This document shows positions 24,737 to 28,466 of a stretch of DNA of 36,919 nucleotides, piece by piece. Source of the stretch: Fidelibacterota bacterium (lineage in GTDB: Bacteria > Fidelibacterota > Marinisomatia > Marinisomatales > UBA1611); contig JABHUQ010000005.1 of the NCBI GenBank assembly GCA_018658715.1, positions 1-36,919 of the forward strand. The letters run 5' to 3'. Numbering within the stretch: the first letter of the stretch is position 1; every line of letters begins with the position of its first letter. Position numbers and translations under genes: made by a program. The notes under the pieces were generated by a model, which did no database searches, was not told the origin of the DNA, and was given only the letters and a program-made list of their open reading frames with translations.

Positions 24737-25081
24737 TTATCTTTTTTCAGCAATTCGAGTTGCTTTACCTGTCAAACTTCTGAGGTAATTCAATTTAGCA
24801 CGACGAACTTTACCGCGACGTTTTACGTGTATATCTGCAACCATTGGTGAATGAAGAGGGAAAATTCTTTCCACACCAATACCATTTGAAATTTTCCGTA
24901 CTGTAAAAGTAGCATCAATGGTTTTTTTACCCCGACGACCTATAACAACACCTTGAAACTGCTGAATTCTTTCTTTATTGCCTTCTCGGACACGTACATC
25001 TACAATGACAGTATCTCCTGAACTAAAATCAGGTAGATCTGTTTTCAACTGATCTTTTGTTGCTTCAAATAATTTATCCAT
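24737..25081 (-). CDS. rplS: 50S ribosomal protein L19
   Basis: The protein has 114 residues, normal for L19. Recognisable segments are [32 protein letters not shown] and the hallmark [13 protein letters not shown], ending with a basic tail. L19 sits at the interface between ribosomal subunits. It follows trmD by 2 bases as the last gene of the rpsP-rimM-trmD-rplS operon, and is followed by a strong terminator. Confidence 0.97.
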
Positions 25082-25083
25082 TC

Positions 25084-25803
25084 CTATTCTCCATTTTCAT
25101 TTTTTTCTTTTAAATATTTTTCCCAAAGATCTGGTCGATATTTTTTCGTCCTATCTTCTCTTTTTTCAATTTTCCATTTTTGTATCTTTGCATGATGCCC
25201 ACTCACCAACACATCAGGCACTTCCATTCCGTCCACAGCTCGTGGCTGAGTATAATGCGGGTGATCTAACAATCCACTTGGGAATGTATCAGAATGTGCA
25301 GATTCTATGGAATTCAATACACCCGGGACTAATCGAACAATACTGTCTGCCATTAGCATTGCAGGTATTTCACCACTTGTAAGGACAAAATCTCCAATAG
25401 AATATTCATGTGTCACATATTTGTCAATGATACGTTCATCAATCCCTTTGTAATGACCACAAATGAAAATAAATCGATTATTTTGACTGCATTCATTAGC
25501 AAAGTCCTGCGACCATTTTTTTCCGCTGGGAGATGGATAAATAATTTTAGTCCCATCTAAACCACCTACTTTTTGGATCGCATCTTCTATGGCTTGTTGT
25601 AACGGTTCGGCCATCAAGACCATTCCTTCACCACCACCAAAAGGTTTATCATCAATTTGGCGATAATTTCCTTTACCGAATTCACGAAGATCAATAATAT
25701 GAAATTGAACTATCTCTTCTAACCTTGCCTTACGCAAGATACTATTTTCAATAAGCGTTTCTATGGTGCCCGGGACTGGTGTAATCAGGGCAATCTGTTT
25801 CAA
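25084..25803 (-). CDS. trmD: tRNA (guanine-N1-)-methyltransferase TrmD
   Basis: The protein has 239 residues. The SPOUT knot region contains [25 protein letters not shown] and [10 protein letters not shown], all conserved TrmD motifs, and the acceptor loop has [11 protein letters not shown]. It methylates G37 next to the anticodon to prevent frameshifting. The start is TTG (25801-25803), which overlaps the rimM stop as TTGA; no ATG lies nearby and the family N-terminus (ITPVPG in place of the commoner LTLFP) begins directly after it. It is part of the standard rimM-trmD-rplS order. Confidence 0.96.
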
Positions 25804-26300
25804 TCGAGCAAACCGTCCATAGGTGTGATTAAAATAACTTTTTCATCATGGTCAATTCCTTTCACCACTTCAGGAATGACCGGAATCAAACGTTCCTTTT
25901 CACCGTCATTAATCACATATACATCGTTATTCGGCAACCAAATAACATCTTGAAGCACTCCAACCATTTTACTATCATCTGTAATAACAGTTGAACCAAT
26001 TAAATCACCTGATATCATATTGATTGCATCAAAATCAGATGCTTCAACAAAAATTGTTTGACCAATAAGTCTTTCAGCTTCATCAATTGAATTAATGCCT
26101 TCAAATTTGAAACGAACTTTTTTCCCCTTACCAACTGTTTTTTCAACAGATACATCAGTAGATGTATCAGGCGAAAAGCCAATCATTAATGATTTATCTT
26201 TTACATATTCTTCAAAGTATCTTGAGAGCGGACGCAAGCGGACTTCTCCTTTTAAACCTGAAGTTGTTGTAATCTTTGCTATAGGGTGAATCCGTGACAT
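25800..26300 (-). CDS. rimM: Ribosome maturation factor RimM
   Basis: The protein has 166 residues. The N-terminal domain opens with HPIAKITTTSGLKGEVRLRP, the RimM nucleotide-like signature, and a PRC-barrel follows from about residue 95 (LIGSTVITDDS, VLQDVIWLPNNDVYVI). It binds S19 and assists 30S head assembly. It starts 7 bases after khpA and overlaps the trmD start by four bases. Confidence 0.94.
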   Translation of the reverse strand: MSRIHPIAKITTTSGLKGEVRLRPLSRYFEEYVKDKSLMIGFSPDTSTDVSVEKTVGKGKKVRFKFEGINSIDEAERLIGQTIFVEASDFDAINMISGDLIGSTVITDDSKMVGVLQDVIWLPNNDVYVINDGEKERLIPVIPEVVKGIDHDEKVILITPMDGLLD

Positions 26301-26307
26301 AAAATAT

Positions 26308-26541
26308 TTAGTCTATAATATCTAGCCGAGCTCGTTTGCCACCTTCTTTGGCATTAATCGCGAATACAATTGTACGCAATGCGGAAATATTTCTACCTTG
26401 CTTACCGATGACTTTACCAAAATCTCCTTCACCAACGGTTAATTCATAGATTATCCTTTGTTCAGTCTCGACAATATTCACATTGACTTCATCCGGCTTA
26501 TCTACTAACAATTTTACTGCTTTTTCAATGAATTCCTGCAT
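26308..26541 (-). CDS. khpA: KH-domain RNA-binding protein (KhpA/YlqC family)
   Basis: The protein is 77 residues long from the ATG at 26539-26541, chosen because GGAGG lies five bases upstream; a slightly longer frame has no such site. The single KH domain has the GxxG loop in KVIGKQGRNIS, preceded by YELTVGEGDFG and followed by ALRTIVFAINAKEGG. It is a small RNA-binding chaperone, often acting with KhpB/Jag. Its place between rpsP and rimM is the conserved one. Confidence 0.92.
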   Translation of the reverse strand: MQEFIEKAVKLLVDKPDEVNVNIVETEQRIIYELTVGEGDFGKVIGKQGRNISALRTIVFAINAKEGGKRARLDIID

Positions 26542-26592: not shown

Positions 26593-27123
26593 TTATTCTT
26601 TATCTTCAGCTGGAGCTTCTTCTTCAGCCGGAGCTTCTTCTTCAGTTGGAGCTTCTTCTTCAGCTGGAGCTTCTTCTTTAGCTGGAGCTTCTTCTTCAGC
26701 TGGAGCTTCTTCTTTAGCTGGAGCTTCTTCTTCAGCTGGAGCTTCAGTAACAACTTCAGTAGCTTTCTTTTCTGCTCTTTCTTCTCTGCCTTTTAACACA
26801 TCTTCACGATTCATGGACCATTTCATCATTTCTTTTTCAATAGTTGCTTTATCCAAACCTTGGCTGATTAAATGCCATTTATAAGCAATGCCAACTCTTT
26901 TTAATAATGCATGAGCTGCATCTGATGGAGTTGCTCCTTCACTTAACCAATAAAGGATTCTATCTTCCTTTAAAGAATAAGATTTTTCTTTATCAATAGG
27001 GTTAAGCCATCCTAATTCTTCAATCGCTGCCCCATCCCGGCGTTTCCGGGAATCAATCGCAACCATTCTATAAAATGGTCTGTTTCGTCTTCCAATACGT
27101 TTAAATCTAATTTTAGTCGCCAA
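26593..27123 (-). CDS. rpsP: 30S ribosomal protein S16 with long acidic repeat tail
   Basis: The protein has 176 residues, about twice the usual bacterial S16. Residues 1-85 are ordinary S16: KIRFKRIGRRNRPFYRMVAID, then LGWLNPIDKEKSYSL and WLSEGATPSDAAHALLKRVGI. A helical stretch (86-125) leads to a tail made of eight hexapeptides related to EEAPAE. The start is TTG (27121-27123) with AAGGAG seven bases upstream. S16 stabilises the 5' domain of 16S rRNA; the tail is presumably disordered and solvent-exposed, of unknown role. Extended S16 proteins with Ala/Glu-rich tails are known in FCB bacteria, so this one is unusual for its length and regularity. It follows ffh by 11 bases. Confidence 0.95.
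   Translation of the reverse strand: MATKIRFKRIGRRNRPFYRMVAIDSRKRRDGAAIEELGWLNPIDKEKSYSLKEDRILYWLSEGATPSDAAHALLKRVGIAYKWHLISQGLDKATIEKEMMKWSMNREDVLKGREERAEKKATEVVTEAPAEEEAPAKEEAPAEEEAPAKEEAPAEEEAPTEEEAPAEEEAPAEDKE
26605..26748 (-). repeat. Eight tandem 18-base repeats encoding the S16 tail
   Basis: Eight consecutive 18-base units encode [E/T]EAP[A/T][E/K] variants. Units differ by a few substitutions (GCT/GCC, and AAA or GAA for the last codon), and the alternation of E- and K-ending units suggests duplication of larger 36-base blocks. The repeat keeps the frame, so changes in copy number would only alter tail length. Confidence 0.93.
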
Positions 27124-27134
27124 CGCGTTTCTCC

Positions 27135-28466
27135 TTAGTTAATTCCTACAAAAGATCCCATTCCTGGGAATTTTGGTGATTTCATATTACCAAATTTTTT
27201 CATCATTTTCTGCATTTCTGCAAATTGTTTTATAAGTGCATTAATTTCATGAACAGGTCGTCCAGAACCTTTACTGATTCTCATCCTGCGGCTGCCATTA
27301 ATTATTTTAGGGTTTGAACGCTCATCTAATGTCATGGAATTAATAATTGCTTCTGTCCAATCCATTTGCTTATCATCTAAATTCATTCCCTTCAACATTT
27401 TTCTATTAACACCAGGCATCATACCCATCAATTGTTTCATAGAACCCATTTTTTTTAACTGGTGCATTTGATTTCGAAAATCTTCCAAATCAAAAGTATT
27501 TTTCATCATTTTTTTTCGAAGAACTTCTGCATCCTTTTCATCAACAAGTGTTTGGGCTTTCTCCACCAATGAAACAACATCGCCAAATCCTAGAATACGA
27601 TCAGCAATACGCTTAGGATCAAAAAGTTGCAATCCATCTATTTTTTCAGATACACCTATAAATTTTATTGGCTTCCCTGTGACTTCACGAATAGAAACTG
27701 CAGCTCCACCACGTGCATCACCATCCATTTTAGTTAAAATAACACCAGATAATGATAATGCTTCGTTAAATATTTTTGCCGAGTTAACAGCATCCTGACC
27801 TGTCATTCCATCAGCCACAAATAAAACTTCTTCCGGGCTTGAATCTTCAGCAATTGCTTGAATCTCAATCATCATTTCACCATCGATGTGTAAACGACCA
27901 GCTGTATCTAGAATGACAACATCTATATTATTTGCTTTCGCATGAGAAATAGCATTCTTACAAATTTTAATAGGGTTACCAGTACCTTCATCATAGACTG
28001 GCAAGTTTGCCACTTCTCCCATTTTCTTTAATTGGTCAATAGCTGCTGGACGATATACATCTGCAGCAACGAGTAAAACTTTTTTCCCTTGCTTCTTTAA
28101 TAAATGACCAAGTTTCGCAGTAGATGTTGTTTTCCCTGAACCTTGTAAACCTGCCATCAGTATTACGGATGGACTTTGAGTCAATTCCAATTCTTGCGCT
28201 GAGCCACCTAATAATTGAATCATTTCATCATGAATAATTTTTATAAACTGTTGACCAGGTTTTACAGACTTTGTTACTTTAGCACCTTGAGCTCGTTCCT
28301 GTACTCTATTGATAAAATCACGAGCGACACGAAAATTGACATCTGCATCCAGTAGGACACGACGTACTTCTCGTGTAGTATCGTTTATATTTCGATCTGT
28401 AATTTTTCCTAGTCCACGAAGATTTCGGAAAACAGAATCAAATTTATCTGTTATTTGGTCAAACAT
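27135..28466 (-). CDS. ffh: Signal recognition particle protein Ffh
   Basis: The protein has 443 residues. The N domain (1-95) is followed by the GTPase domain with GLQGSGKTT (106-114), DVYRPAAIDQL, DTAGRLHID, TKMDGDARGGAA and GVSEKIDGL. The methionine-rich M domain follows (about 310-430), with the RNA-contact motif SKGSGR and a C-terminal MQKMMKKF stretch. With 4.5S RNA it targets nascent membrane proteins to the Sec translocon. It heads the rpsP-rimM-trmD-rplS operon. The upstream gap (28467-28584) contains a small hairpin but no clear promoter match. Confidence 0.97.
   Translation of the reverse strand: MFDQITDKFDSVFRNLRGLGKITDRNINDTTREVRRVLLDADVNFRVARDFINRVQERAQGAKVTKSVKPGQQFIKIIHDEMIQLLGGSAQELELTQSPSVILMAGLQGSGKTTSTAKLGHLLKKQGKKVLLVAADVYRPAAIDQLKKMGEVANLPVYDEGTGNPIKICKNAISHAKANNIDVVILDTAGRLHIDGEMMIEIQAIAEDSSPEEVLFVADGMTGQDAVNSAKIFNEALSLSGVILTKMDGDARGGAAVSIREVTGKPIKFIGVSEKIDGLQLFDPKRIADRILGFGDVVSLVEKAQTLVDEKDAEVLRKKMMKNTFDLEDFRNQMHQLKKMGSMKQLMGMMPGVNRKMLKGMNLDDKQMDWTEAIINSMTLDERSNPKIINGSRRMRISKGSGRPVHEINALIKQFAEMQKMMKKFGNMKSPKFPGMGSFVGIN

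Follow-up and report, generated by a model that had tools for sequence, protein, structure and literature searches.

The ribosomal protein S16 (bS16) encoded in a stretch of DNA from an uncultured marine bacterium of Ca. Neomarinimicrobiota, formerly called SAR406/Marinimicrobia, is predicted to be made up of three parts, namely a conserved basic core, a helical arm and a disordered acidic tail encoded by a tandem array of 18-base units. As judged from the sequences compared, tail length and repeat unit shift quickly between close relatives, with the acidic make-up mostly retained. The reading that we favour, at roughly even odds, is that the tail is a polyanion kept for its bulk charge and flexibility, likely an electrostatic bristle, the length of which is shifted by in-frame duplication. 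The whole stretch analysed, a contig of 36,919 nucleotides, is referred to as the window.

Identification of S16 and its operon

The rpsP gene of the window (26593..27123, minus strand) has a TTG start codon and encodes a protein of 176 residues. The product scores above the cut-off of both TIGR00002 (94.6 bits, cut-off 45.3) and the Pfam family PF00886 (83.6 bits, cut-off 27), and its initial annotation as ribosomal protein S16 is therefore upheld. A Shine-Dalgarno-like sequence AAGGAGA (27130..27136, minus strand) is read 6 bases 5' of the TTG codon and overlaps the stop codon of the upstream operon gene ffh (27135..28466, minus strand; TIGR00959, 586.7 bits). The genes assigned by profile match on the same strand are a khpA-like gene with a KH domain and an ATG start (26308..26541), rimM (25800..26300), trmD (25084..25803) and rplS, which encodes bL19 (24737..25081). 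The order ffh-rpsP-khpA-rimM-trmD-rplS contains the rpsP-rimM-trmD-rplS operon expected for bS16. According to PMC10931766, information on how the rpsP operon is regulated is still lacking. The host is placed in Ca. Neomarinimicrobiota and the closest named S16 loci are L075 (92% identity) and L076 (87%).

Predicted three-part organisation of the protein

The structure of the window S16 was predicted with AlphaFold from an alignment of 43 sequences. Among the 64 named loci 48 were examined, 39 from the phylum and nine from elsewhere (L134 is cut by the end of its contig and L138 has no placed start); the alignment draws on 36 of the 39 and six of the nine, with L104, L107, L112, L131, L132 and L134 omitted. 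The conserved core (residues 1-77; 26893..27123, minus strand), delimited by the Pfam and TIGR matches, is modelled with confidence, every block of ten residues having a pLDDT above 85. It is followed by an arm (residues 78-126; 26746..26892, minus strand) that is alignable across the family and order and has predicted helices at residues 79-87 and 92-126, with pLDDT values of 93-97 as far as residue 120, falling to 73 for the block 121-130. The tail (residues 127-176; 26596..26745, minus strand) has pLDDT values of 55-59 from residue 131, and no secondary structure is predicted after residue 126. A Foldseek search with the model retrieves S16 chains from solved ribosomes (best E-value 5e-9), consistent with an S16 fold.

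The net charge is +8 for the core, +1 for the arm and -20 for the tail, in which 22 Glu and 15 Ala make up 74% of the 50 residues, an Ala/Glu-rich low-complexity composition. The acidity attributed to the tail at the outset is thus confirmed, and the suggestion that it would project from the ribosome agrees with the model, since the protein is predicted to be disordered beyond residue 126.

The array encoding the tail (26603..26745, minus strand) has been identified by Tandem Repeats Finder with a period of 18, 7.9 copies, 93% matches and a score of 258, the runner-up array in the window scoring 72. The EAPA(E/K)E units read in order are EAPAEE, EAPAKE, EAPAEE, EAPAKE, EAPAEE, EAPTEE, EAPAEE and EAPAED, in agreement with the eight 18-base repeats of the initial annotation. 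The alternation of Glu and Lys described there holds for the first four to five units and not for the remaining ones; Lys replaces Glu in two of the eight units and Thr occurs in one. The units are encoded as GAA GCT CCA GCT GAA/AAA GAA, and all 16 Ala codons from residue 121 onwards are GCT. Elsewhere in the window, at 723-758, the same program finds a perfect 9-base tandem repeat, TTGCTGTTG, in four copies.

Survey of S16 across the phylum

The search for S16 covered two sets, one of 61 genomes from relatives and one of 149 from across the phylum, with the window genome in both, amounting to 178 distinct genomes. A match to S16 was obtained in 151; many assemblies are incomplete and 27 genomes are without a match. 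An extension beyond the 77-residue core is present in all the 151 S16 genes, of which 20 are without a stop codon, 19 at contig ends and one (G050) cut by the extracted stretch; the shortest of these genes reach just 34 and 41 residues past the core. The 131 complete proteins are 138 to 461 residues long (median 218).

Such a span of lengths fits the main rival to the bulk-charge reading, namely neutral tolerance. According to this explanation the C-terminus is free, and in-frame repeats rich in GAA and GCT come and go through slippage or recombination without serving a selected function, the acidity stemming from codon make-up and from the harm that basic tails would do on the ribosome. We regard it as possible and clearly the less probable of the two. 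It does not readily account for the fact that no extension-free S16 occurs among the 151, nor for the recurrence of acidic S16 ends in other phyla.

The favoured reading of a tail kept for its bulk charge draws on the same survey, in which the extension is universal and, among the 131 complete proteins, has a net charge no higher than -5 in 116; the remaining 15 are not clearly acidic. When only the last 50 residues are considered, 103 proteins have a net charge of -5 or below, 18 are intermediate and 10 are at +5 or above. The proposition that all S16 tails are acidic is ruled out by these ten basic ends, and a pure net-charge rule fails for this minority. Five of the ten belong to genomes of one family and have Lys-rich ends (G061, G067, G072, G076 and G080), and one, that of G155, is unreliable because of a stretch of N in the sequence.

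The S16 genes L205, L207, L210, L211 and L212 of the family f19 have an extension that is acidic overall and a strongly Lys-rich end, the final 50 residues having a net charge of +12 to +19. The tails of L225 (G149) and L218 (G165) also end basic, and these ends resemble the acidic repeat translated in a different frame, as though a shift had taken place inside the array, which may be real or an assembly error.

The charge of core, arm and tail was compared in 128 of the 131 complete genes, the three with X being left out. The whole protein is net negative in 105 of the 128. The charges of core and tail show a Spearman correlation of +0.20, which is not in the compensating direction, and those of arm and tail a weak one that is (-0.29). 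The idea that the charge of the tail simply compensates that of the core is therefore unsupported. These weak correlations, like the basic-ended minority, count against the electrostatic role favoured here.

Turnover of the repeats between species

In three species of one genus the number of units is 8 (window), about 16 (G001) and 0 (G002). The array of G001 is based on GCA CCT GCT GAA GAA GAA, and its codons differ from those of the window unit. The same peptide unit is thus written in different codons, which means that each array has spread or been homogenised independently. In the third species, G002, the tail is long and acidic and an array was not found. The array expansion proposed initially is supported by these differences in unit number and codons, and a tail that is constant among relatives is not what is seen.

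Arrays scoring at least 50, built on many different units, have been identified in 78 of the 151 tails. Of these, 17 reach four or more copies, the majority hold roughly two or three, and some fall within the Lys-rich arm; the count was made without a shuffled control. The best array has a period divisible by 3 in 78 of 80 cases (from the 151 genes together with two named loci), the exceptions being G155 and G165. For the analysis of differences between units, an array had to have a period divisible by 3, 3.5 copies or more, 78% matches or more and no indels, which gave 21 arrays drawn from the 151 genes plus L099 and L100. Pooled over the 21 arrays there are 84 synonymous and 121 nonsynonymous differences (n=205), with 53.1 synonymous differences expected. 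This pooled synonymous excess fits an amino-acid constraint on the tail peptide, for which it is support and not proof, since the copies in one array are not independent.

The excess is also evidence against neutral tolerance. It is significant at p < 0.05 in five of the 21 arrays (G001, G005, G080, G108 and L099) and greatest in L099, with 15 synonymous to 0 nonsynonymous differences (p 3e-9), and in G001, with 12 to 7 (p 0.0007). The other 16 arrays have no significant excess, as neutral tolerance would lead one to expect, and the derivation of the signal from so few arrays counts against the bulk-charge reading. The window array itself, with 1 synonymous and 3 nonsynonymous differences, is uninformative. 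The occurrence of EEAPAE-like arrays in other proteins of the window genome, one of them lipoprotein-like by eye, also speaks for neutral tolerance. These arrays are located at C5:64-976 (L154, the lipoprotein-like one), C33:18812-18958 (L155) and C85:2-326 (L156); those of C33 and C85 are cut by the contig end and that of C5 lies no more than about 265 bases from one.

The possibility that the extension is an artefact of assembly or a mis-called extension was also considered. The source is a draft genome assembly of 115 contigs, and in 19 of the 151 S16 genes the contig stops within the tail. Against this, the array of the window lies well within its 36.9-kb contig, and extensions are found in assemblies made independently, among them G112, which consists of a single contig, and L099, the AG-426-L02 record. 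An artefact is largely refuted and in our view hardly credible. The assembly ends no more than 600 bases past the S16 core in 19 of the 151 genomes, each time inside the tail reading frame, and in the equal upstream stretch in 3 of the 151 (one-sided binomial p 0.0004). Such an excess would arise from the repeats alone or from repeats together with strain variation.

Similarity to known long S16 proteins

Acidic and extended tails are a known and widespread feature of S16, and the protein described here is no new kind of system. According to PMC6821194, S16 is among the bacterial proteins richest in low-complexity regions, with 186 listed under bacterial S16, and 157 of 187 S16 low-complexity regions consist of more than 70% Ala plus Glu. 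The window protein resembles these bS16 regions in protein and composition. It differs in that its units also contain Pro and are encoded in a regular 18-base DNA array which differs between species of the same genus. Among the nine named loci from outside the phylum, six have acidic ends, two do not (L133 and L138) and one is cut (L134). The acidic-ended ones are L129-L132 of Planctomycetota, including Gimesia, L135 of Bacteroidales with VEQ repeats, and L137 of Micrococcaceae. The view that the window S16 is exceptional by its tail did not survive, being ruled out by the survey of 151 genes, by the long or acidic-ended S16 proteins of Bacteroidota, Actinomycetota and Planctomycetota, and by the Ala/Glu-rich regions reported in PMC6821194. 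Another locus, L128, from a record of Rhodobiaceae bacterium MED730, encodes an S16 that shares 60% identity with the Neomarinimicrobiota query over 113 residues, and may thus carry the wrong label or include a foreign contig.

The long S16 proteins of Bacteroidota, such as those of F. johnsoniae and P. gingivalis, are alike along the chain, the top-scoring solved chain aligning to residues 1-174 of the window protein including the acidic Ala/Glu end. The alignment with the long S16 family of NCBIfam (PRK14521/NF011094) covers the same residues 1-174, with a score of 105.7 bits that is below the equivalog cut-off of 209. In contrast to the window protein, the displayed sequence of F. johnsoniae S16 has no regular hexapeptide array. 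A literature search on the F. johnsoniae S16 tail surfaced no paper evidently on the subject.

The deposited S16 sequences of F. johnsoniae, P. gingivalis and M. tuberculosis have 188, 192 and 162 residues, as against 85, 118 and 97, and 85-113 residues in the structure library. If the shorter lengths are taken as the residues modelled, this suggests that the S16 ends of relatives are unseen in solved ribosomes. In the solved structures described in PMC10085706 and PMC6133939, the S16 arm of C. acnes binds uS4 and its end is without density, and 30 of the 74 extension residues of M. smegmatis S16 form a helix reaching uS4. These actinobacterial proteins and the window S16 share, when compared as a whole, a layout of a core, a helix leading away from it and an unseen end. 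They differ in that contact with uS4 and h17 marks the actinobacterial arm, whereas the window arm comes from a predicted model of S16 alone.

Contacts of this kind raise the alternative of specific docking, in which the acidic stretch would bind a particular basic partner such as uS4, uS5 or an assembly, hibernation or initiation factor. The arm is alignable across relatives, in keeping with such a partner, and a yeast study cited in PMC6821194 associates low-complexity regions at protein termini with a larger number of protein-protein interactions. The tail proper, by eye, has no common motif across the phylum, and the corresponding ends in the solved ribosomes appear unmodelled; both points argue against docking, which we consider unlikely.

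Start codon of rpsP

The start of rpsP, aligned to the conserved first residue in the 151 genomes, is TTG in 120 (including 27121-27123 of the window), GTG in 16 and ATG in 12, and is unplaced in 3. The motifs GGAG, AGGA or GAGG lie within 20 bases 5' of the start in 135 of the 151, a count made without a chance control. When the gene after rpsP, khpA, is aligned likewise, 108 of the 109 loci found have ATG and one has TTG. For ffh, 127 loci give 45 ATG, 4 GTG and 1 TTG, and 77 do not reach the start. A literature search on the phrase of rpsP with a UUG start codon found no paper. The conserved non-AUG start of rpsP may set the dose of S16.

Possible role of the tail

If the tail is kept for bulk charge, the basic core would bind 16S rRNA, as is assumed from the S16 family. 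The helical arm (residues 79-126) would probably lie along the 30S body on its solvent side and reach toward uS4, by analogy with the actinobacterial arm. The disordered polyanionic tail past the arm would then be located on the 30S solvent face and be maintained for negative charge and flexibility rather than for a fixed sequence. It would most likely act as an electrostatic bristle, offsetting the basic core and arm (+9 as against -20 in the window S16). The bristle may keep free S16 from aggregating and from binding RNA where it should not, and may screen the rRNA surface by the mRNA-entry side. Tail length could change freely and fast by in-frame duplication of repeats because only bulk properties would count.

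A bolder proposal is that the tail is a selected fast length dial, in-frame repeat gain and loss retuning a polyanionic brush on the solvent face of the 30S subunit from one species, and perhaps one strain, to the next, with the phylum-wide non-AUG start of rpsP being part of dosage control; we put it forward as a long shot. The phylum offers an example of a core ribosomal protein that is, so far, always extended, with a length varying several-fold and a repeat unit turning over between species of the same genus. PMC6821194 notes that what low-complexity regions do in ribosomal proteins needs study. The question raised in print there, of why Ala/Glu low-complexity regions abound in S16, becomes testable across a large natural series of tail lengths, charges and synonymous change.
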